The notes under the pieces are model-generated. The model searched no databases. It saw only the letters and a program-made list of their open reading frames with translations, and had not been told where the DNA came from. DNA of 41,324 nucleotides from Halorubrum sp. Hd13 (GTDB lineage: Archaea; Halobacteriota; Halobacteria; Halobacteriales; Haloferacaceae), in assembly GCF_002252755.1 (NCBI RefSeq), contig NZ_NHOY01000042.1:1-41324 (forward strand), read 5' to 3'. Shown here piece by piece: positions 3,950-14,061 of the stretch. The stretch's first letter is position 1; every line of letters starts with the position of its first letter. A program made the position numbers and the translations under genes.

Positions 3950-4552
3950 ATGACGGGCGTCGAACTCACCGATCGCGGGCTCGTCGTCGACCGCGAGCCG
4001 AACCGGCTCGACGAGCTCGCTGTCGGGTTCTCCGAGATCCTCTCTCGGCTCGACATAGACCACGTCTTCGTCGCCGGCTACGTCGCGATCCTCGCCGGCC
4101 GGTCGCGGTCGACCGAGGACATCGACGTGTTCATCGAGCGCTGTTCGGTCGAGCGGATCGACGGGCTCGTCGCCGAGCTGGAACGCGAGGGGTACTGGGG
4201 ACCCGCGATGCCGCTCTCCGAGATGCACGGGAACCTCTCCAACGAGACGAACATCTGGGTCGCGCCCGACGGCGAGATGACGCCCCACCTCGAAGTGAAG
4301 TTCCCGAGCGACGAGTTCGACGACGCGTCCCTCGCGAACGCGGTGGACGCGCACGTCGGCGGCCACACGGTCCCCATCGGGCCGCTCGAACTCCAGATCG
4401 CGTACAAGCTCTCGCTCGGCGGTCGCACCGACCTCGAGGATGCCGCGCACCTCTACACAGTCTTCGGAGAAACGCTTTCCCGCGACCGACTCGAAACGTG
4501 GGTCGAACGACTCGACGTCGAGGAGCGCTATGAGCGACTCACGAACGCCTGA
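3950..4552 (+). CDS. Nucleotidyltransferase-fold protein (DUF6036/AbiEii-like)
   Basis: The 200-residue protein carries the minimal nucleotidyltransferase signature: GYVAILAG at 43-50, then RSRSTEDIDVF at 51-61 with the paired acidic residues Asp57 and Asp59. A third acidic position could be in the HLEVKF strand near 120-125. The remainder (ELQIAYKLSLGGRTDLEDAAHL) resembles the helical part of AbiEii/MNT-type proteins, where the KLxxxGRxxDLxDA motif is typical. Such proteins are often toxins or antitoxins that nucleotidylate tRNA or a partner protein. The next gene starts inside this one (23-nt overlap), so the two are almost certainly co-translated. The function as a toxin-antitoxin half is inference; a standalone modification enzyme is possible. 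Confidence 0.7.
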   Translation: MTGVELTDRGLVVDREPNRLDELAVGFSEILSRLDIDHVFVAGYVAILAGRSRSTEDIDVFIERCSVERIDGLVAELEREGYWGPAMPLSEMHGNLSNETNIWVAPDGEMTPHLEVKFPSDEFDDASLANAVDAHVGGHTVPIGPLELQIAYKLSLGGRTDLEDAAHLYTVFGETLSRDRLETWVERLDVEERYERLTNA

Positions 4553-4968: not shown

Positions 4969-5478
4969 TTACTCGAACGACTCCAACTTCCCGACGATCT
5001 TCGTGTACACGTCCGGCGCCACGTACCAGCCGTGATCGATCATCGCGTCGATGGCGTCACGGCCCTCCACCGTCGACAGCGCGCCGTCCCTCACGGCGGC
5101 GAGAACGACGTACGCGGTCCCGCGCGTCTCGACGTCCTCCACTTCGGCCGCGGAGCGTCCGGCCGACTCGTCCATCGCGGCGACGGCGTCGCGGGCGTCC
5201 GCACAGCCGAGCACCGCGGCGTCGGCGTCGCTCAATCCCGGATGTTGCGCGAGCCGCGTCGCGACCGTCGAGTCGTCGGTGTCGACCGCGACGACGTCGA
5301 CGAGGCCGTCCTCCACGGCGCGCTCGATCCGGCGCGCGTCGTCGTATCCCTGCTCGACACCGGTCGTTACGACTTCTCGGTAGACGGCCTCCGGGACGAC
5401 TCGCGGCTCGTCCAGCGCCTCGATGACACCGAGCCGGTCCGCCTTCGCGAGGTAGATCAGCGGCGTCGCGTCGAACAT
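4969..5478 (-). CDS. DUF3368/PIN-like toxin
   Basis: This 169-residue protein has the PIN-fold layout: N-terminal Asp in MFDATPLIYLAKADRL, VVPEAVYREVV, then LSDADAAVLGCADA with acidic residues on a helix, and a late conserved Asp region (RGTAYVVLAAVRDG). This matches DUF3368, a family of predicted nucleic-acid-cleaving toxins partnered with UPF0175 antitoxins. The start at 5478 (MFDATPL) is preferred because it puts the catalytic Asp at position 3 as in relatives; earlier in-frame ATG would add 17 Arg-rich residues inside the upstream gene. The antitoxin stop is 5 nt upstream of this start, so the two are one operon. Substrate unknown; RNA cleavage is inferred from the family. Confidence 0.85.
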   Translation of the reverse strand: MFDATPLIYLAKADRLGVIEALDEPRVVPEAVYREVVTTGVEQGYDDARRIERAVEDGLVDVVAVDTDDSTVATRLAQHPGLSDADAAVLGCADARDAVAAMDESAGRSAAEVEDVETRGTAYVVLAAVRDGALSTVEGRDAIDAMIDHGWYVAPDVYTKIVGKLESFE

Positions 5479-5483
5479 CCAGC

Positions 5484-5774
5484 TCACAGCTCGTCGAGGT
5501 CGGCTTCGAGGTGGTCGGCCGAGACCCACGCGTCGTCCGCTTCTTCGACGAGGTCGGCGAACTCCCAGACAGAGACGCCGGCGAGGTCGGCGGCCTTCGC
5601 GAGCGACACCTCACCGTCGGCGAACCGTTCGAGCGCGCGCTCGGTGCGCCACTCGTCGAGGCCCTCGGAGAGAAGCTTTCGGACCGCCGTACTCCGGTCG
5701 AGGCGTTCCGATTCGAGGTACGCCTCGAGTTCGGCTTCGAGGTCGTCCGGGACGCGAGTGGAGATGGTGGGCAT
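5484..5774 (-). CDS. UPF0175-family antitoxin with ribbon-helix-helix N-terminus
   Basis: The 96-residue protein begins with a ribbon-helix-helix type DNA-binding segment (TISTRVPDDLEAELEAYLES, then LDRSTAVRKLLSEGL). The C-terminal half is the UPF0175 helical motif (ERFADGEVSLAKAADLAGVSVWEF). UPF0175 proteins pair with DUF3368 PIN toxins, exactly the arrangement here. It probably neutralises the toxin and represses its own promoter through the imperfect palindrome just upstream of its ATG. First gene of the minus-strand operon. Confidence 0.88.
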   Translation of the reverse strand: MPTISTRVPDDLEAELEAYLESERLDRSTAVRKLLSEGLDEWRTERALERFADGEVSLAKAADLAGVSVWEFADLVEEADDAWVSADHLEADLDEL

Positions 5775-5793: not shown

Positions 5794-5825
5794 ATGTATT
5801 CATAGGTTTCGGCGGGATTCGTTCG

Positions 5826-6632
5826 CTAGTTTGAACCGTTACCGCGGCTTTCGCCTTCGATTGGATTCTGTCCACTCTGGACCCATCCATTCGGGAGGTC
5901 AATATCCTCTAAATTAGCGTTCGGATTATAGTATGTCTCGTCACGCCCCGTGAAACGGACGGCTATCAGTTGACCTTTCGTCATAAAATCGCCCTTCGGA
6001 CGAGCGCTATCGAAGCTCTGACTTGTTTCCCACAAAAACGGTCCATCGGAAGGTTCCACTCGTCTGTCTCCTTTGTGTGAATAGAGTACCCTAGTGTTGA
6101 GTTCAAGATCGCTAGGAGAGACGAAAACACTACCTTCCCCAGCGAACTCGACTGTGAGTGGATCGCACTCGACGATGAACGATCGGGTCTCTCCGAACAG
6201 TTCCGCTTGGACACCGTCCCCACGAACCCGAACTGTGACTTCGAACTGCGATTTCCCGGATTCCTCCCCGCAAGTGACCTCTCCTATTATCACTTGGTCA
6301 CCGTCCCACTGGCCGAACTTTTCCTCCGGGTAAACTGGCTCACCTACAAGCGTAGGTCCATTCCCTTCTATTTCCGTCACTTTAACCTCAGCTTCTTCGA
6401 TCTCAATTTCTGTATCGTCGCCGAACTGGTTTCGAATTTCAACGAGATTGATCGTCGTATTCGATGAAACTGTCTTCTTAGAAGATCTGTACCGCACGAA
6501 CGCGTCCTCATCGTCTTCCACGCTCACCTCCACACCGCGCTCGGCCTCCATACTGCTGAACGCGCCGGTTCCGACGCTCATCGCGCCGGAGCTCGCGCCG
6601 CCGAGCAACAGGATGAGGTTCCGTCGTTTCAT
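5826..6632 (-). CDS. TasA/camelysin-like secreted protein (SipW-dependent-type signal, DUF1102-like)
   Basis: A 268-residue exported protein. The N-terminus MKRRNLILLLGGASSG followed by VGTGAFSSMEAERGVEVSV matches the signal-plus-mature-start pattern shared by haloarchaeal SipW-dependent/DUF1102 proteins: twin Arg, short hydrophobic core, GTGAF, then an ERxVxV strand. The mature part is predicted mostly beta, as in TasA/camelysin folds, and ends in a less conserved hydrophilic tail. The sequence is notably lower in GC and uses more A/T-ending codons than flanking genes. Its promoter is a TATA (6687-6696, minus strand) about 55-60 nt upstream. Neighbours are a second such protein, a SipW-like peptidase and a DUF5305 gene. 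Assembly into surface fibres is an inference from TasA relatives. Confidence 0.7.
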   Translation of the reverse strand: MKRRNLILLLGGASSGAMSVGTGAFSSMEAERGVEVSVEDDEDAFVRYRSSKKTVSSNTTINLVEIRNQFGDDTEIEIEEAEVKVTEIEGNGPTLVGEPVYPEEKFGQWDGDQVIIGEVTCGEESGKSQFEVTVRVRGDGVQAELFGETRSFIVECDPLTVEFAGEGSVFVSPSDLELNTRVLYSHKGDRRVEPSDGPFLWETSQSFDSARPKGDFMTKGQLIAVRFTGRDETYYNPNANLEDIDLPNGWVQSGQNPIEGESRGNGSN

Positions 6633-6686
6633 GTGCGGTGGGATCTCACGCTTCGTTCACGCTATCCAACGTGTTCCGACCGTATG

Positions 6687-6696
6687 GTTATACACT
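6687..6696 (-). promoter_or_regulatory. TATA box of the minus-strand TasA-like gene
   Basis: GTGTATAACC on the minus strand, 55-65 nt before the ATG at 6632, implying a short 5' leader of about 30 nt. Confidence 0.45.
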
Positions 6697-6734
6697 CCCG
6701 GAAGCGCGGAAGGCACCGCCTGAAACCCCGCGCC

Positions 6735-7316
6735 TTACGTCAGTTCCGGGGGGTCGTCGGGTTCGCCGAGCTTCATCTCCGCGGTGTAGTACTTGTGCGC
6801 CATCGCGGAGAACGCGAACGCAACGACGATCGCGACCGTCCACGCCATGTCGGGCAGGAGGACGAACGGCCACGCGCCGAGCCACACCGCGCCGGTGAGC
6901 GCGACGGCGACCCCCGACAACCCGAGGTAGTAGTCGCTCCAAGGGATCTCCTTCCCCTCGACGACGTCCATATATAAATCGACGTTCTGCAGGGCGTGCG
7001 TGGGCTCGACGACGCCCCGGTCCTTGTTGAACTCCACGACCCCCGCCTCGTCCATCTTCGGCAGGTGTGACTGCTGGAGCGCGGTGTAGACGCGCTTGCG
7101 CTCGTTGCCCGTGATCTCCGTCGTCTCGATCCCGTTCTCCCAGGCCGCGATCTGCTCCGCCATGTCGCCGATCGCGATCCGGTCGTCCTCCTCTCGTTTC
7201 AGCAGGTGCACCGCGAACCGCCGACGCTGGTTCGCCAGGACGTCGAACAGCTCGTCCTCGGACACCTCTGTCGTCGGTTCGACCCCTCCCCCGTCGATCT
7301 GTTGTGCCGACGCCAT
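6735..7316 (-). CDS. Winged-helix regulator with two C-terminal TM helices (DUF7344-type)
   Basis: The 193-residue protein starts with a short acidic linker and a winged-helix domain (ELFDVLANQRRRFAVHLLK at 22-40; IGDMAEQIAAWENG; RKRVYTALQQSHLPKMDEAG; VVEFNKDRGVV), the haloarchaeal DUF7344 pattern. Residues ~125-178 form two membrane helices (GLSGVAVALTGAVWLGAW and WTVAIVVAFAFSAMAHKYY). It therefore is a membrane-tethered DNA-binding protein. It sits between two TasA-like genes, so control of that surface locus is plausible. A perfect palindrome directly before its ATG suggests autoregulation. The signal it senses is unknown. Confidence 0.82.
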   Translation of the reverse strand: MASAQQIDGGGVEPTTEVSEDELFDVLANQRRRFAVHLLKREEDDRIAIGDMAEQIAAWENGIETTEITGNERKRVYTALQQSHLPKMDEAGVVEFNKDRGVVEPTHALQNVDLYMDVVEGKEIPWSDYYLGLSGVAVALTGAVWLGAWPFVLLPDMAWTVAIVVAFAFSAMAHKYYTAEMKLGEPDDPPELT

Positions 7317-7329
7317 TGTCTGTCAGACA
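7317..7329. promoter_or_regulatory. Perfect palindrome abutting the regulator start codon
   Basis: TGTCTG-T-CAGACA directly precedes the regulator's ATG (7316, minus strand), downstream of its TATA (TTTATG on the minus strand, near 7344-7350). It is well placed as an autoregulatory operator. Confidence 0.5.
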
Positions 7330-7722
7330 CATATTCACAAGTCAACATAAATCCCGCGGTTATGATAATCAAGGAAACTTTCTCTCTGTTTATACAGTCA
7401 TCAGTACAAATACTCTTTATCGGCGTAATATCGTCTAAGGACGCGAAAACACAGGGATCCGAGAGATCGATATCATCTTTCGATCGCCGTAAATTATCAC
7501 TTTCTGTCAAATCCAAGCGCCCCATCAGAAGCAACGATTGCCGGTTCTGGTGCGTCCTGAACGACCCGCGAACGGATCTCAGACCCGGCCTGAAGCGGTC
7601 GAATCGGGGTTCAGGCGAGGGCGGAACCCGTCGGCAATGTCTTCAGTCTCGCCCGGAAGTGTTTCTGGAAATTCATAACGATATGGGATAGGCCTCATGG
7701 GTGACGTAGAGCGACCCCGGGT
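7330..7722. other. AT-richer non-coding region between regulator and TasA-like gene
   Basis: About 390 bp with lower GC than the window average. It holds the divergent promoters: the regulator TATA on the minus strand, and a possible TATA (TTCATAACGATA, ~7671-7682) for the plus-strand TasA-like gene. One open frame (7362-7691) is basic and Ser-rich and not convincing as coding. Several ATCG/GATC-rich short repeats (e.g. around 7460-7490) may be protein-binding sites. Confidence 0.5.
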
Positions 7723-7742
7723 GACGCGGGATGTCCCGCGTC
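7723..7742 (+). promoter_or_regulatory. GC-rich hairpin in the 5' leader of the TasA-like gene
   Basis: GACGCGGGA-TG-TCCCGCGTC is a perfect 9-bp inverted repeat 44 nt before the ATG at 7786. As RNA it would form a stable hairpin in the untranslated leader. It may affect mRNA stability or translation; as DNA it may be an operator. Confidence 0.5.
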
Positions 7743-7785
7743 GGCGGGCCGCGGGTCGTGTGCGGACAACACGAGGTCAATAACA

Positions 7786-8418
7786 ATGGCAAACCGACGC
7801 AAGTTCATCGCCGGTCTGGGCGCATTGGCTACGGGTAGCGCAGCTGCAGTGGGTACGGGCGCGTTCGAAACCTCCGCATCCGAGCGGACGGTCAACGTGA
7901 ACGTCGCCGCTGACAGTGCTGGTTTTGTGGATATCACTGCACTGAATGACACTTACGCCTCTGGGACCGATGATGGTCAACTTGAGCTCAATTTCAATAG
8001 TGATTCAGGACTTGGAATTTTTGCCGGTGATGCTCAGGGGCTTAACCCTGACACGACGTTCAATTTCTCCGAGGTTTTCCAAATCGCAAATGTTGGAGGA
8101 ACTGGCAGCCCTCGTGTTATCATTGAAGCAACTGGATTCAGTGATCTCGAATCACTCGAATTGACAGTTGCGACCGAATCTGGCAGCAGTGGTGCTGGAC
8201 ACCAAGCTGACAAAGGTGACTCGCTGCGGGCAAAGGATTACGAGAACCCGGTGAACCTTCCGGTACTCAACGAACCGGGCGATATAACTGTGGACATCGA
8301 GATCGAGACGAAATCTGCAGATGATTTCACCGGAACAATCGATGGGGAGCTTACTATCCACTACGCAGCTGGAGGCAGTAGGAATGAGCTCACGGATGTG
8401 CTCGGATCCGGCTCGTAA
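7786..8418 (+). CDS. TasA/camelysin-like secreted protein (SipW-dependent-type signal, DUF1102-like)
   Basis: A 210-residue exported protein. The N-terminus MANRRKFIAGLGALATG contains a Tat-like NRRKFI, followed by AVGTGAFETSASERTVNVNV, the shared cleavage-region and first-strand pattern of the family. The mature domain has alternating beta-strand pattern (LELNFNSDSGLGIFAG, FNFSEVFQIANVG, RVIIEATGFSDLESLELTV, DITVDIEIETKSADDF) and ends after a final strand (ELTIHYAAGG), consistent with a single jelly-roll-like domain. GC content is low relative to neighbours. It is likely a structural surface subunit processed by the SipW-like peptidase at 11541-12704; fibre formation is inferred only from bacterial TasA and archaeal bundling-pilus relatives. 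Confidence 0.75.
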   Translation: MANRRKFIAGLGALATGSAAAVGTGAFETSASERTVNVNVAADSAGFVDITALNDTYASGTDDGQLELNFNSDSGLGIFAGDAQGLNPDTTFNFSEVFQIANVGGTGSPRVIIEATGFSDLESLELTVATESGSSGAGHQADKGDSLRAKDYENPVNLPVLNEPGDITVDIEIETKSADDFTGTIDGELTIHYAAGGSRNELTDVLGSGS

Positions 8419-8452
8419 TACAGGCTACTAGTTACATCCAACACCTCCTCAA

Positions 8453-8752
8453 GTGAAGCGCAGAACCCATCTGCCCGGTTTGGCTGCTGCTACTGGAGGA
8501 GGCACATCGGTAATAGGAGCTAGTGGTTTCAATACCGCCCAGATTGAATGGCAAGTGTCGATCAGAGCCGTCCCTGATGACGGGGCGCTATTATTGTTGA
8601 GGGTTCCCTATGCGAGAGAGACCTCCTCGCAAAGTACTGCGGTTGAAAAAGGACTGCCTAGCCACCTAAATCTGGTAAATAAGCAAGTCCGAGCTGTAGG
8701 ATTACATTTCCTCGAATCTGATTGCCGACATAATATTGTCAACCATATTTAG
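8453..8752 (+). pseudogene. Decayed TasA-like gene copy
   Basis: A GTG-initiated frame reads MKRRTHLPGLAAATGGG, then SVIGASGFNTAQIEWQVSIRAV. This is the same twin-Arg, G(T/A)xGF, xxIExxVS layout as the two intact TasA-like proteins. After about residue 50 (DDGALLLL) similarity ends and the frame continues as unrelated-looking sequence to a stop at 8752, far short of the usual ~200 residues. No SD or clear TATA precedes it. It begins 34 nt after the stop of the intact copy. I read it as a relic left by duplication and decay or by recombination, though a short expressed protein cannot be excluded. Confidence 0.6.
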
Positions 8753-8766
8753 ATTGTTGTCTAAAA

Positions 8767-8771
8767 GGTGA
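8767..8771 (+). promoter_or_regulatory. Shine-Dalgarno site of the modular surface protein
   Basis: GGTGA 7 nt before the ATG at 8779; it supports that start. A TATA-like CATATTTAG lies near 8744-8752. Confidence 0.5.
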
Positions 8772-8778
8772 CTTATCG

Positions 8779-10317
8779 ATGCCCACTGCCAGACGCACTC
8801 TGACCCTCGCCCTCCTGCTCGTAGCCGCGGGCTCCCTCGCTTTCGCCACGGGCGCGGCGGTGGTTGACGGTCCGGCCGACACCTTCGCGGACGACGACCT
8901 CGCGGTACAACCGGCCGACGGCCCGAACGGGAACTACTCCTATTTAAATGACGCCAACGAGATCGCGATCGACGTCTCGGCGTCGAATCCGAACATCAAG
9001 GATCCCTCGTTCGAGGGCGTAAACGTCGGAACCACCGGAACCATCGACGGCATCTTTACGATCACGTACACGGCCGAGCGGTACGCGCACGTGTGGATCG
9101 AGTACGACGGCGACGGCGAGGTCGCCTTCGTCTCCGACGGCGACTCGATCGAGGGCGAGGCGAACAACGTCACGCTCGGACCCAACCAGACCGTCACGGT
9201 CGGCCTCGCGCTCGACGCGGGCGACTCGGCCGCCGGGACGCAGTTGGGTGCCGACGAGTTCTCGATCAACGCGAAGCTCGCCGAGCCGGAGCAAGCGTCC
9301 GGGACGACCGCGACGGGCGGCGGGAGCCAGCAGGCGGGCGGCGGCCCGACCACGACGGTCAGGGCGCCGAACGCGACCTACCGGGAGTTCGTCGCGAGCG
9401 GGATCGGCCGCGGGGAGTCGGTCCGGTGGCTCGCGGAGGGGATGCACCTCGACGGCGACAACGTCACGCTGGAAGGGATCGACCTGGACGGGATCGACAA
9501 CGAGCGCGTCGAGCTGGACGCCGCGGGGAGCCCGGACCCGTTCGCGGACGCGGGGCCGGTGTCGGCGCCGACCACGCCGCACTCGATGGCGTACCTCGCG
9601 CTCGACCACGACTTCGCGCCCGACGCGGTCGACGAGATGACGGTCCGGTTCAGCGCGGCCCCGTCCCACCTGAACGCGACCGGGACCGACTCCGAGGACG
9701 TGACGCTCTACCGGCGGACGGCGGCGGGCGCGTGGGAGGAGGTTCCGGTGGAGGTCGTCGACGACGACGTGGCCCGAATGCTGGGGCTTCCCGAGGACCG
9801 TGTCCACTTCCGCGCGACGACCGGGCCGTCTTCGACGTTCGCGGTCGCGGCGCACGCCCCCCGGTACGACGTGACCGAGGCGACGGTCGCGCCCGAGGCG
9901 ATCGACCCCGGCGAGAACGTCACGGTCCGGACGACCCTGCGGAACGGCGGCGGCGCGGCCGGCGAGCGCACGGTGACGCTGACGGCGAACGGCACCCCGG
10001 TCGCGAGCGAGACCGTCGCGCTCGACCCGAACGAGACGGCGACGGTGGCGTTCGACGCGACGTTCGAGTCCCCCGGCGCCTACGACCTCGCGGTCGACGG
10101 GACGTCGGTCGGCGAGCGCCTCCTCGTCGGCGACCCCGCGAGCGACGACGCGGGGGGATCGGGCGACGAGTCGAACGCCGGTAGCGACGGGTCCGCCACC
10201 GTCGCCGGGACCACGGAGGAGCCGTTCGGGATCGATCCGGCGGACCTCGCCGGTCCGCTCGCGCTCGTGGCCATCGTCCTCGCCGCCCTCGCGCTCGTCC
10301 GCCGGATGCCGCGATGA
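8779..10317 (+). CDS. Modular cell-surface protein (DUF1102-like, PGF-pre-PGF-like and CARDB-like domains, C-terminal TM)
   Basis: A 512-residue exported protein. Residues 1-28 are a signal peptide (TLALLLVAAGSLAFATGA). Residues ~45-170 form a beta-rich domain with N-terminal pattern like DUF1102 (YLNDANEIAIDVSASN; VGTTGTIDGIFTITY). A Gly/Thr/Gln-rich linker follows (~170-190). Residues ~195-360 resemble the PGF-pre-PGF type module (RGESVRWLAEG; VTLYRRTAAGAWEEVPVEVV; FAVAAHAP). Residues ~360-440 look like a CARDB/Ig-like adhesion domain (PGENVTVRTTLRNGG). A Ser/Gly/Asp-rich linker and a C-terminal helix (PLALVAIVLAALALVRRMPR) anchor it. Many NxT/NxS sequons suggest N-glycosylation. It probably displays or anchors the adjacent TasA-like subunits; this is inference. 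Confidence 0.75.
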   Translation: MPTARRTLTLALLLVAAGSLAFATGAAVVDGPADTFADDDLAVQPADGPNGNYSYLNDANEIAIDVSASNPNIKDPSFEGVNVGTTGTIDGIFTITYTAERYAHVWIEYDGDGEVAFVSDGDSIEGEANNVTLGPNQTVTVGLALDAGDSAAGTQLGADEFSINAKLAEPEQASGTTATGGGSQQAGGGPTTTVRAPNATYREFVASGIGRGESVRWLAEGMHLDGDNVTLEGIDLDGIDNERVELDAAGSPDPFADAGPVSAPTTPHSMAYLALDHDFAPDAVDEMTVRFSAAPSHLNATGTDSEDVTLYRRTAAGAWEEVPVEVVDDDVARMLGLPEDRVHFRATTGPSSTFAVAAHAPRYDVTEATVAPEAIDPGENVTVRTTLRNGGGAAGERTVTLTANGTPVASETVALDPNETATVAFDATFESPGAYDLAVDGTSVGERLLVGDPASDDAGGSGDESNAGSDGSATVAGTTEEPFGIDPADLAGPLALVAIVLAALALVRRMPR

Positions 10318-10399
10318 CCGGTCGGTCGTCGGGGGACGCCCTCGTTCGAACCGCCCTCTCGGGCGTCGGGTTCTCAGCGGTGAGACGCGCGCCGACAGG

Positions 10400-10408
10400 C
10401 CTTAACCG
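10400..10408 (+). promoter_or_regulatory. TATA-like element for the rhomboid-type gene
   Basis: CCTTAACCG about 25 nt before the GTG at 10430; leaderless initiation expected. Confidence 0.4.
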
Positions 10409-10429
10409 CTGGTCTGCGAGGTCCCGTCC

Positions 10430-11335
10430 GTGACCGCGCCACCGACCGACGAGCGCGACCGCGCCGCCGGCGCCGCGAGCGCCGACCGCGCCGCCGACCA
10501 CGCCCTCCGCCGGGAGCTACTCGCGAGCGCCCGGGCCGTCGACCTGCTCGTCCTGCTCGCGGTGCCGGCGGTGCTGGTCGGCGTCTTCTCGCTCCCGGAG
10601 GCGACTCGCCGGTCGCTCGCGTTCGCGTACGCGGACCCGACCGTTCCGACCGCGTTCGCCGCGCACTACGTCCACCTCGACGCCGGTCACCTCGCCGGCA
10701 ACCTCGCGGGGTACTGTCTCCTCGCGGGCGTCGGCTACGCGCTCGCGGTCTTCGGGGGCGCCCGCCGCTTCTTTTTGACCGCGCTGGCGACGTTCCTGCT
10801 GGCGTTCCCGCTCGTCCTCTCGGCGCTGAACCTCGCCGTGCCCCGAGACGCGATCGGGTTCGGCTTCTCCGGGATCAACATGGCGCTCGCGGGGCTGCTC
10901 CCGCTGCTGCTCGGGACGTACGCCCGCGCGCGCTTCGCGCCGGGGGCCTCGCTCCGCGCGCTGCCCGCGGTCTTCTTCGCGCTCGTCGGCTGGATCGCGC
11001 TGCTCGCGCTCCCGGTCTCGGCGACCGGCCCGGGCATCGCCGGGCTCGCGACCGGCGTCGCCGGCGCGCTCCTCGCCGTCCTCTACGCGTCGAGCGCCGG
11101 GATCCCGATCCGCGAGACGGTCCGCGAGGGCGTCCGCACGGTCGCCTCGCGGCCGGGCGAGGGCGACCTGTTCGCCGTCGGCGCGGTCCTGGTCGTCGGC
11201 TATCCGGTCGTCGGCTTCCCGGCCGATCCGACCGGCGCGGGCAGCGTCGTGAACCTCTACGTCCACCTGCTGGGCTTCTGTCTCGCCTTCATCGGCCCGT
11301 TCGCGCTGCTCGCGGTCGGGGTGTTCGAGACGTGA
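10430..11335 (+). CDS. Rhomboid-type intramembrane serine protease
   Basis: A 301-residue polytopic membrane protein with an Ala/Arg-rich cytoplasmic N-terminus (1-35). Family hallmarks: the helix-2 motif HLDAGHLAGN (82-91), GFGFSGIN (143-150) with the nucleophile Ser147, and a late VHLLG (278-282) supplying the catalytic His279. About 7-8 hydrophobic helices are visible. The sequence is divergent from bacterial GlpG (GFSG instead of GASG), as in other haloarchaeal rhomboids. The GTG start follows a TATA-like element by 25 nt; no better ATG is present. It lies between the modular surface protein and the signal peptidase, suggesting release of membrane-anchored surface proteins; in Haloferax a rhomboid protease influences surface glycoprotein glycosylation (from memory). 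Confidence 0.75.
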   Translation: MTAPPTDERDRAAGAASADRAADHALRRELLASARAVDLLVLLAVPAVLVGVFSLPEATRRSLAFAYADPTVPTAFAAHYVHLDAGHLAGNLAGYCLLAGVGYALAVFGGARRFFLTALATFLLAFPLVLSALNLAVPRDAIGFGFSGINMALAGLLPLLLGTYARARFAPGASLRALPAVFFALVGWIALLALPVSATGPGIAGLATGVAGALLAVLYASSAGIPIRETVREGVRTVASRPGEGDLFAVGAVLVVGYPVVGFPADPTGAGSVVNLYVHLLGFCLAFIGPFALLAVGVFET

Positions 11336-11407
11336 CCTCGCGACGCGGGATCCCGGGCCCGCGACCCGACGGGCGGCTTCCCGCCACGTCCTGCTCCGAA
11401 CCCCGAA

Positions 11408-11415
11408 CTTATAAC
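11408..11415 (+). promoter_or_regulatory. TATA box upstream of the signal peptidase gene
   Basis: TTATAACG lies 126 nt before the chosen peptidase ATG. A transcript from it would carry an untranslated leader of ~100 nt that includes three 18-bp repeats. Confidence 0.5.
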
Positions 11416-11457
11416 GTGTCGATTACATTCCATGATCGGAGAGCCTCGCCGAACCGC

Positions 11458-11511
11458 GGCGGAACCGACGATCGAGGCGGAACCAACGCCCGCGGCGGAA
11501 CCGACGCCCGC
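11458..11511 (+). repeat. Three tandem 18-bp repeats in the signal peptidase leader
   Basis: Units at 11458-11475, 11476-11493 and 11494-11511 share GGCGGAACC(G/A)ACG and differ at few positions. Read from an ATG at 11432 they encode repeated AEPT, but that frame is not the peptidase frame. They may be replication slippage products or a leader regulatory array. Confidence 0.7.
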
Positions 11512-11540
11512 AGCGCGACGCCCGCGCCAACCCACGACAC

Positions 11541-12704
11541 ATGTCACCGAAACGCATCCTCTCGATAACGCTGCAGGTCGCGGTCGTCCTCGTCGTCCTC
11601 TCGCTGGTCGTCGGCCAGCTGCTCGGACAGCCGATCCTGCTCAGCTTCGTCGAGACCGGGAGCATGCAGCCCACGCTGGACCCCGGTGACGGGTTCGTGG
11701 CGATCCCCGCGCCGCTCGCCGGCGACGTCGGCGTCGGCGACGTGGTGACCTTCGACGCGCAGGAGATAGAGGGGGGCGGGCTGACCACCCACCGCGTCGT
11801 CGAGGAGACGGAACGGGGGTACGTAACGCGGGGCGACAACAACCCCTTCACCGATCAGGATGGGGGCGAGCCCGTGGTGCAGGACGCCGACGTGGTCGCG
11901 GTGGCGCTCCAGGTCGGCGGGAGCGTGGTCGTCATCCCCCACCTGGGCACCGTCGCGATGGCGATCCAGTCGGGGCTCGCCTCGGTCCAGACGTGGCTGG
12001 CGGTCACCTTCGGGGTCCGGTCGTTCCAGGGAACGCAGGGGTTGGCGTACATCCTCTTCGGGCTCTCGGCGGTCGCGTACGCGGCCGACTGGTACCTGAC
12101 TCGAAACGCGCGCGAGACCCGCGAACGCGACCGCTCCCGCGACGACGGCACCTCCGTGTTCCTGATCGTCGCCGTGCTCGCGCTGGTGCTGATGGCGACC
12201 GCGACCGCGGCGATGGTCGTCCCGGCCGGCACGCAGGAGTACGGCGTCGTGAGCGCCGAGTTCGAGTCCGAGAACCCCACCGTCATCGAGCGCGGCACGA
12301 GCCAGGAGCTGGAGTACGTCGTCCCCAACTCCGGACTGGTGCCGGTGTACGCGTACGTCACCCCGGCGAGCCCCGGCGTCGAGGTCGAGCCACAGCGGCT
12401 CAGCGTCGAGAGCCGGGGCGAGGCGTCGACCACCGTGACGCTCACCGCCCCGCCGGAGACCGGCTACTACCGGCTGTTCGTCACCGAGCACCGGTATCTC
12501 GCGGTGCTCCCGCGCGGCGTGATCGACGAGCTGTACGGCGTCCACCCGTGGGCGCCGATCGTCGCGATCGACGGCCTGCTCGGCGGCACCATCGCCGGGA
12601 TCGGGCTCGTCCTGCTGCGCGGCGAGCCCGCGCGGATACGCTCCCGTGAATCGCGCGAGAAACCCCCGCTGTATCGCCGCCTCCTCCGCCAGATCTACAG
12701 GTGA
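11541..12704 (+). CDS. SipW-like signal peptidase I
   Basis: A 387-residue membrane serine protease. An N-terminal TM helix (8-28) leads to ETGSMQPTL with nucleophile Ser41, then TTHRVV with His84 (archaeal/ER type uses His in place of Lys) and RGDNN at 97-101 with Asp99. This Ser-His-Asp set is the SipW/Sec11 type. Further TM helices follow (~150-178 and ~205-226), then a beta-rich C-terminal region (~230-330) and a last TM (AIDGLLGGTIAGIGLVLLRG). At 387 residues it is longer than minimal SipW (~180), the added C-terminal domain being common to haloarchaeal members. It is coupled to the DUF5305 gene 4 nt downstream and probably removes signal peptides from the TasA-like proteins nearby. Confidence 0.88.
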   Translation: MSPKRILSITLQVAVVLVVLSLVVGQLLGQPILLSFVETGSMQPTLDPGDGFVAIPAPLAGDVGVGDVVTFDAQEIEGGGLTTHRVVEETERGYVTRGDNNPFTDQDGGEPVVQDADVVAVALQVGGSVVVIPHLGTVAMAIQSGLASVQTWLAVTFGVRSFQGTQGLAYILFGLSAVAYAADWYLTRNARETRERDRSRDDGTSVFLIVAVLALVLMATATAAMVVPAGTQEYGVVSAEFESENPTVIERGTSQELEYVVPNSGLVPVYAYVTPASPGVEVEPQRLSVESRGEASTTVTLTAPPETGYYRLFVTEHRYLAVLPRGVIDELYGVHPWAPIVAIDGLLGGTIAGIGLVLLRGEPARIRSRESREKPPLYRRLLRQIYR

Positions 12705-12708
12705 CCGA

Positions 12709-14061
12709 ATGAGCTCCTCATCCCCAGACGAGAACCGACTCCGGCTCCGCGCGGTGTTAGACGCACAGTTCGCCGTGATCGTCGCGGTCTTGCTGATCGC
12801 GGCCGCCGTCGGCGGCGCGCTCGTCTACACGACCCACGTCGATCCCGGCACCGAGACCCGCGAGCGGACCGTCTCCTCGTTCACCGTCGAGACGGCGTAC
12901 AACCACTCCGCCGAGGTGACCGAGCCGAACTCGGTGTTCCAGATCGGGACCGTCCTCGACGACCGTACCACGTACTTCACGCGGATCGCTCCCGAACTCG
13001 ACGTCGCCGTCGAGACGACGTACGCGGCCGCGTCCGCGTCGGACGTCGACGTGCGGTTCGACTCCGTCCTCGTCATCCGCAACGTCGGCGAGGACGGGAA
13101 CGTCGTCTACTGGAGCGAGCGGGAGCCCCTGGCGTCGGAGACGGTCTCGGACGTGGACCCCGGGGGGACCGCGACGGCGTCGTTCGCGCTCAACAGCTCC
13201 GCGGTCGACGCGACCGCGGCCGAGATCGAGGAGGAGCTCGGCGCGTCGCCCGGGGAGACGGAGACGTTCGTCGTCACCGACGTGGCGGTCGAGGGAACGA
13301 TCAACGGCGAGCCGACCTCGTACGCCCGGACGGTCCGGCTCGGAATCGACCACGGCGGCGACACCTACACCGTCTCCGACCCCGGCGTCCGGTCGGACAC
13401 CTCGGACCGCACGGAGACGGTGACCGTCGATCAGAGCTACGGCCCCCTCCGGTCCATCGGCGGGCCGCTCCTGTTCGTGGTCGGCCTCGCCGGAGCCGGC
13501 GCGCTGGTGTACGCCCGAAGGGAGCGCGAGTTCGCGCTCACGCCCGCCGAGCGCGACTACCTCTCGTACAGGGACGACCGGTCCGAGTTCGCGGAGTGGA
13601 TCACGACGTTCCGACTCCCGGCGTCCGTCCACGAGCGCCCCGAGGCGGAGGCGGAGAGCCTGCGCGACCTCGTTGACTTCGCCATCGACAACGACACCGG
13701 CGTCGTGGAGGACCCCGAGACGGGCGCGTACCACGCCGTGGCCGGCGAGTTCGTCTACACCTACCGGCCGCCGTCTCCGCCGTCGGTCGACGCACTCTCC
13801 GAAGGGGAGGACGGCGACGCGCCCGCGGTCGACGACCTCACGGCCGCCGACGGAGCGGTGGGCGCCGAAGACGTCGACGCGCGCGACGGTGACGGTGCCG
13901 ACGTCGATGTCGACGGCGACGGTACAGGCGCCGATGTCGACGGTGACGGTGCAGGCGCCGATGTCGACGATGACGGTGCAGACTCCGACGGTGCCGAGGC
14001 GACGGGAACGGACGCGGCGGGGGACGACGACCCCGGGAGCGACGACGCAAACCGGGAGTGA
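12709..14061 (+). CDS. DUF5305 membrane protein
   Basis: A 450-residue protein with an N-terminal TM helix (~17-40), an extracellular beta-rich domain (~45-250), a second TM (GGPLLFVVGLAGAGALVY) and a cytoplasmic C-terminus. The cytoplasmic part includes a conserved-looking domain (PAERDYLSYRDDRSEFAEW; LVDFAIDNDTGVVEDP) and a long Asp/Gly/Ala tail. This matches DUF5305, typically adjacent to SipW-type peptidase genes in haloarchaea. The ATG at 12709 follows the peptidase stop by 4 nt and is preceded by a GGTGA Shine-Dalgarno at 12700-12704, so coupling is likely. Function unknown; a chaperone or anchor in export of the TasA-like proteins is a guess. Confidence 0.82.
   Translation: MSSSSPDENRLRLRAVLDAQFAVIVAVLLIAAAVGGALVYTTHVDPGTETRERTVSSFTVETAYNHSAEVTEPNSVFQIGTVLDDRTTYFTRIAPELDVAVETTYAAASASDVDVRFDSVLVIRNVGEDGNVVYWSEREPLASETVSDVDPGGTATASFALNSSAVDATAAEIEEELGASPGETETFVVTDVAVEGTINGEPTSYARTVRLGIDHGGDTYTVSDPGVRSDTSDRTETVTVDQSYGPLRSIGGPLLFVVGLAGAGALVYARREREFALTPAERDYLSYRDDRSEFAEWITTFRLPASVHERPEAEAESLRDLVDFAIDNDTGVVEDPETGAYHAVAGEFVYTYRPPSPPSVDALSEGEDGDAPAVDDLTAADGAVGAEDVDARDGDGADVDVDGDGTGADVDGDGAGADVDDDGADSDGAEATGTDAAGDDDPGSDDANRE
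13900..13980 (+). repeat. In-frame 27-bp tandem repeats coding an acidic tail
   Basis: Two near-identical 27-bp units (13927-13953 and 13954-13980) preceded by a degenerate one encode GADVDGDGA-type repeats at the C-terminus of the DUF5305 protein. The DxDxDG spacing looks like calcium-binding loops, but on a cytoplasmic tail this may be only acidic low complexity. Confidence 0.7.

Follow-up and report, generated by a model that had tools for sequence, protein, structure and literature searches.

The TasA fibre of Bacillus is a donor-strand fibre (PMC9674648), and TapA of the same genus has an immunoglobulin (Ig) fold and donates its N-terminus (PMC10151520). Among archaea, the thread of Sulfolobus acidocaldarius (Saci_0406, PDB 7pnb) is a donor-strand filament (PMC11607397) for which isopeptide bonds have been reported, and haloarchaeal Tafi, or twin-arginine translocation (Tat) fimbriae, were described in 2025 (Galeva et al., iScience 28:111793, as cited in PMC12687288). 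Here, we analyze a locus of Halorubrum sp. Hd13 at positions 5826 to 14061 of a 41,324-nucleotide stretch, hereafter the window, which is a single contig (NZ_NHOY01000042.1) of a 3.8-Mb genome. A sequence-only reading of this DNA had proposed that it encodes a TasA-like archaeal fibre together with a dedicated signal peptidase. This proposal is borne out by a match to a solved Tafi pilin and by SipW models, and all genes that it named are present at their places according to Pfam, NCBIfam and sequence inspection. The fibre itself is of a described kind, as Tafi had been reported. Of the partners that the earlier reading considered undescribed, the modular surface protein turned out to be TafF-like, and the DUF5305 protein is indeed without a described role. 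Overall, we consider the window locus to be probably a Tafi-type fimbria locus with exchangeable mature subunits.

We refer to the subunit genes at 5826, 7786 and 8453, the last of which is decayed, as TasA1, TasA2 and TasA3. TasA2, on the forward strand, consists of a constant part (7786-7866), a 27-codon Tat signal ending in GTGA/F that marks the proposed SipW cleavage point, and a variable part (7867-8418) encoding a mature Tafi-type pilin, the proposed major subunit. The protein matches Pfam DUF1102 (5.9e-5), and a profile of its mature part with 41 relatives matches PDB 9p0a, entitled 'Structure of Natrinema sp. J7-2 Tafi pilus', with an E-value of 2.5e-18 over mature residues 1-139. This match begins exactly at residue 28, with the mature starts of both proteins in register. 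In an AlphaFold2 (AF2) model with a predicted local distance difference test score (pLDDT) of 78.6, the best fold match is again 9p0a (Z 8.7, root-mean-square deviation 3.0, 126 residues). The bundling pilus AbpA of Pyrobaculum calidifontis (7ueg), an organism of a different phylum, matches with Z 8.5 over 125 residues and the Sulfolobus thread with Z 7.8, both at 10% sequence identity; the comparison with TasA and AbpA folds that the earlier reading had suggested thus does not refute it for TasA2. Since Z values of 7-8 are frequent for such predicted models in fold searches, the sequence match to 9p0a bears most weight. A sequence match to Bacillus TasA was not obtained and no TasA chain is among the PDB sequence matches or the listed fold matches of TasA2, so that the link to TasA runs via AbpA and 9p0a. 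Mature residues 1-17 of TasA2 carry a conserved F..R.V.V motif and are of low confidence in the monomer model, as would be expected of a donor strand.

TasA1 (5826-6632, reverse strand) is a putative minor subunit, proposed to end or initiate the fibre, with the Tat signal MKRRNLILLLGG...GTGAFSS. The RR motif occurs in TasA1, TasA2 and almost all relatives, and twin-arginine export is predicted from this motif. Both NCBIfam matches of TasA1, to TafE (2e-11) and TafC (4e-5), are N-terminal and under cut-off, and a PDB sequence search returned a weak N-terminal match to 9p0a only (E 0.05). An hhalign comparison relates TasA1 to TasA2 at 97.6%, with a shared N-terminus that comprises the signal and about 20 residues. 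In relatives, TasA1 is a single copy adjoining DUF7344. With its kept N-terminal segment and Ig-like body (AF2 model, pLDDT 79.5) it recalls Bacillus TapA, and a donor role could be proposed by analogy.

What sets the locus apart is the contrast between constant machinery and variable subunits. Our statistics on median identity and breakpoints cover the window locus and loci L061-L084, the genes of relatives having been called mechanically; named loci, among which some of these genomes recur, are left out of them. Within the genus, median pairwise protein identity is 86% for the adjoining purL, 85% for SipW, 79% for DUF7344, 67% for the rhomboid, 64% for DUF5305 and 54% for the TafF-like protein, and it drops to 35% for TasA2 and 34% for TasA1. 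Split at GTGA/F, signals are 83% and mature parts 28% identical for TasA1, compared with 85% and 27% for TasA2. GC content at third codon positions (GC3) is about 0.9 in the machinery, with subunit medians of 0.54-0.72. Breakpoints were read off local BLAST alignments, and such alignments stop once identity drops. For 77 of the 78 TasA2 pairs, DNA homology breaks off 70-173 nt into the gene, with a median of 82 that corresponds to the 27th codon; that of TasA1 ends 121-193 nt in (64 of 66 pairs; median 139, about codon 46). The sister species represented by L074 and L076 share 10.4 kb at 95% DNA identity up to the last signal codon, beyond which DNA similarity is absent until just before the TafF-like gene. 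When the window TasA2 was used as DNA query against 52 genus genomes, the others matched almost solely bases 1-81, except for one (G029) in which the match reaches base 294 and includes the last 27 bases.

Such differences could in principle have arisen by rapid point mutation, with viruses or other factors as the selecting force and without any exchange of cassettes. The mature domains do keep a framework (F1, R7, D16, G58, N75, G137) and a similar length, which is what diversifying selection within a single lineage would produce. However, point mutation would have to leave both flanks of the sister species 95% identical while erasing all DNA similarity of the mature part, and it does not account for mature subunits that are 79-85% identical between distant genera whose SipW proteins share about 54-62%. 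One such case is a Haloarcula amylovorans subunit that is 85% identical to a Halorubrum salsamenti one, whereas the window SipW is merely 54% identical to that of Haloarcula. Subunit GC3 values also scatter from 0.41 to 0.82 (0.51 for the window TasA2) against about 0.9 in neighbouring genes, and spare cassettes exist. A spare leader-TasA2-TasA3 cassette of genome G016 lies about 1.2 Mb from the locus of that genome, flanked by phage-type integrase and resolvase genes, and genome G022 has another spare cassette of leader and subunit on a 14-kb contig. We therefore regard point mutation alone as very improbable; the pattern points to a fixed expression site at which subunit cassettes are replaced horizontally.

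The decayed TasA3 (8453-8752, forward strand) has lost 378 nt internally and in frame, with a 7-nt overlap at the junction (8616-8622). Over residues 1-57 the remnant is 65% identical to the intact TasA3 of L075 (Halorubrum xinjiangense), and the spare cassette of G016 carries an intact relative as well. Two more pairs of TasA-like subunits are found in the window genome, on contigs C17 (L091, 7644-9516) and C75 (L192, 7938-10399), the latter adjoining a DUF7344 gene and both without SipW in the stretches fetched. Two leader-bearing subunit cassettes within one locus occur in L080 (G019) and L082 (G022); those of G019 are on opposite strands and flank TasA1-DUF7344 on both sides.

The relationship to the published tafi operon was assessed through NCBIfam models and the title of 9p0a. 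Like Tafi, the window locus has Tat-signal TasA-like subunits, a TafF-like partner, DUF7344 and a SipW-type peptidase, together with the pilin profile and fold. It could be the described tafi cluster and nothing distinct, as it shares the kinds of genes and the Tat/SipW logic, and in NCBIfam-type loci, too, the DNA homology of mature TafA breaks off near codon 42. This view has to contend with the presence of both types in the same genomes. The window genome contains an NCBIfam-type tafi locus on contig C38 (L090, 7.9-12.9 kb) with TafA-like (187 of 190 bits), TafF-like (308 of 420 bits), TafC-like, DUF7344 and SipW genes; elsewhere, in L089, TafA, TafC, TafE and TafF all pass their cut-offs, with SipW, DUF5305 and DUF7344 alongside. 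In a SipW tree, 24 window-type and 7 tafi-type rows fall on separate sides with a support of 100/100. The flanks differ as well, the window locus adjoining purL and the C38 locus a gene that we take to be carB-like by its N-terminal sequence. The hairpin leader described below was found only in Halorubrum and, probably, Halobellus, and the window proteins remain below the equivalog cut-offs. In addition, a constant rhomboid and DUF5305 and the subunit-exchange pattern distinguish the window locus from described Tafi. Identity with the known cluster is hence unlikely in our view, and, judged by sequence, the window locus and the NCBIfam-type tafi locus represent different lineages. With tapA-sipW-tasA of Bacillus subtilis the locus has in common a subunit with a dedicated SipW peptidase; unlike that operon, it features a twin-arginine motif, several subunits, a TafF-like anchor, a rhomboid and DUF5305.

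Window-type loci are present in 24 of 34 other genus genomes, usually in the order TasA1 and DUF7344 (both on the reverse strand), zero to three subunits, TafF-like, rhomboid, SipW and DUF5305. Because this order recurs, the grouping is not due to chance. Exceptions are local losses and, in some loci, subunit genes on the far side of TasA1. Comparable orders are found in Haloarcula, Halomicroarcula, Halobacterium, Haloarchaeobius and others. Outside the fimbria genes, a PIN/DUF3368 protein and its UPF0175 partner (4969-5774, reverse strand) form a toxin-antitoxin-like pair in the variable stretch preceding them; in relatives, the pair is present, absent or relocated. A 200-aa protein at 3950-4552 (forward strand), without Pfam match and nucleotidyltransferase-like by eye, has counterparts of 83-98% identity in part of the relatives, whereas others lack it.

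The partner proteins fit a surface fibre. DUF7344 (6735-7316, reverse strand; Pfam 1.3e-30) is a winged-helix protein whose domain is followed by two C-terminal hydrophobic segments according to hydropathy, and we propose that it is a membrane-tethered regulator. On the forward strand, the modular protein at 8779-10317 matches NCBIfam TafF (8e-8) and combines a pilin-like domain with a CARDB domain and a C-terminal hydrophobic segment (hydropathy). Its hhalign match to TasA2 (98.8%) starts at mature pilin residue 18, and a pilin-like body that lacks the N-terminal donor-strand segment would suit a terminal anchored acceptor at the proposed base of the fibre. The rhomboid protease (10430-11335, forward strand) was missed by Pfam; eight hydrophobic segments are seen by hydropathy, and among 60 relatives at least 93% preserve its HxxxN (H87, N91), GFSG (S147) and H279. 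The adjacent TafF-like anchor is its proposed substrate. The SipW-type peptidase (11541-12704, forward strand), of the endoplasmic reticulum (ER) type with a Ser-His pair, is located beside the subunits. It matches archaeal signal peptidase I (1.1e-15) and the SipW model (8e-8, short of the 190 bits that this model requires), keeps S41, H84 and D99 in 87 relatives and is 79-94% identical across 24 genus genomes. The Bacillus SipW model spans 189 residues, half the length of this protein, and lacks its C-terminal half (residues about 140-387), in which more hydrophobic segments surround an extracellular-looking domain that is conserved in relatives.

DUF5305 (forward strand; Pfam 4.4e-58), a membrane protein that contains two hydrophobic segments and has an acidic tail, more likely starts at 12706, directly after the SipW stop, than at 12646 and extends to 14061. 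It occurs in 158 of 194 genomes of the haloarchaeal class. In 20 DUF5305 places taken from the best-scoring hits, a SipW-like gene lies within a 14.7-kb stretch in 17 and within 1.7 kb in 14. A neighbourhood survey of this kind had been proposed by the earlier reading. Since SipW is nearby in most sampled places, DUF5305 belongs to the SipW pathway by association; its role as a SipW or assembly partner is predicted from the neighbourhood only. A PDB sequence search with DUF5305 returned nothing credible. We rejected DUF5305 as a further pilin, as hhalign against the pilin profile gave 1.3%, that is, no relation.

TasA2 is preceded by a conserved 90-nt leader (7696-7785, forward strand). In an alignment of 21 sequences it is 86% identical, and its inner hairpin (7723-7742, GACGCGGG-ATGT-CCCGCGTC) is nested in an outer CGACCC...GGGTCG stem. 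Of 52 genus genomes, 33 carry the leader. Within a set of 146 genomes of the order, it turned up solely in nine from the genus and in one from another genus of the family, which is probably Halobellus because the same set of leader loci contains three named Halobellus loci. All 35 strong leader loci inspected have a Tat-signal subunit gene directly downstream. An Rfam search of window positions 5800-9000 gave no match. A peptide-coding leader was rejected, as 1-nt insertions shift the frame between species while the stems persist. Instead of forming an RNA structure, the leader might act as a DNA site, either a DUF7344 operator or a recombination site. An inverted repeat reads alike in DNA, conservation of 86% is above the need of pairing alone, and the leader separates DUF7344 from the divergently oriented subunit gene, which it accompanies on either strand and at other loci. 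Pairing argues the other way: 98% of pair cells are kept, including G-U, two pairs are compensated, and only 2 of 500 shuffles reach the covariation score, which drops when partners are slid, although kinship of the rows can produce such statistics without structure. We see the two possibilities as nearly balanced, with the DNA site slightly behind.

In L067 (G005, Halorubrum lipolyticum), the promoter-like part of the leader is kept and the hairpin missing, with the subunit at oriented position 9694 still open. Genes other than those of pilins may also have such a leader, as a weak match in L217 (G194:C5, 6742-7659) precedes a different Tat-signal secreted protein of 305 aa. A promoter-like motif, CATAACNNTANGG, was seen by eye upstream of both the 5826-type and the 7786-type gene in most relatives.

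Several points weigh against a Tafi-type locus with exchangeable subunits. The NCBIfam Taf models match three locus proteins, all under the equivalog cut-offs, with 43.9 of 155 bits for TafE, 40.5 of 190 for TafA and 31.8 of 420 for TafF. However, the mature 9p0a fragment misses the same cut-offs (38 of 155), and since a solved Tafi pilin fails them, low scores do not exclude Tafi; the Taf models therefore cover one lineage only, which is a warning that family models from one pilin lineage overlook others. Covariation in the leader is modest (two pairs) and its folding energy in the window unexceptional (z -1.57). The TafF-like gene is itself fairly variable at 54%, the breakpoints inherit the behaviour of local alignments, and our data compare species, in which no switching within a strain was observed. 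Finally, the locus is known here from its genes, with no filament seen, and the fold search with TasA1 yields generic Ig-like matches only, up to Z 8.6. Because of these matches we do not claim a TasA fold for TasA1, whose earlier description as TasA-like is convincing for the N-terminal part alone. The lack of a filament and the generic Ig-like body would also suit camelysin-like proteins that are secreted or associated with the S-layer without building a fibre, and the TasA/camelysin family does include non-filament proteins. Against this, TasA2 specifically matches the Tafi pilus and archaeal bundling pili with mature starts in register with 9p0a, and the TafF-like anchor carries a pilin domain, which makes a non-fibre role improbable.

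If the locus is of the Tafi type, subunit precursors would be exported folded via the Tat pathway, and the locus SipW, with DUF5305 as its membrane partner, would cut after GTGA to release an N-terminal strand starting with Phe. Subunits would then polymerise, each donating its strand to the next, until the TafF-like protein ends the fibre and anchors it at the cell, from which the rhomboid may release it. DUF7344 would regulate from the membrane. Leader and signal peptide could serve as a constant 5' anchor, and the machinery likewise stays the same. Horizontal recombination would swap the mature subunit, either by itself or together with its neighbour as a TasA2-TasA3 pair. A possible reason, which we put forward tentatively and at somewhat less than even weight, is surface-antigen exchange: at a fixed fimbria site, mature pilin cassettes would be recombined across species and genera, altering the outer face and leaving the machinery untouched. 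A conserved signal anchor would be available on each side of DUF7344 and the leader on one, some cassettes would be carried on mobile islands, and the gain could be, for example, evasion of cell-binding viruses.

The constant-variable design of this fimbria locus looks new. It suggests how Tafi fibres diversify, by keeping machinery and signal constant and interchanging mature subunits, and it offers a testable archaeal counterpart to pilin antigenic variation. DUF5305 and the rhomboid become candidate partners of the SipW-driven fibre pathway, and the conserved 5' leader provides a regulatory handle.

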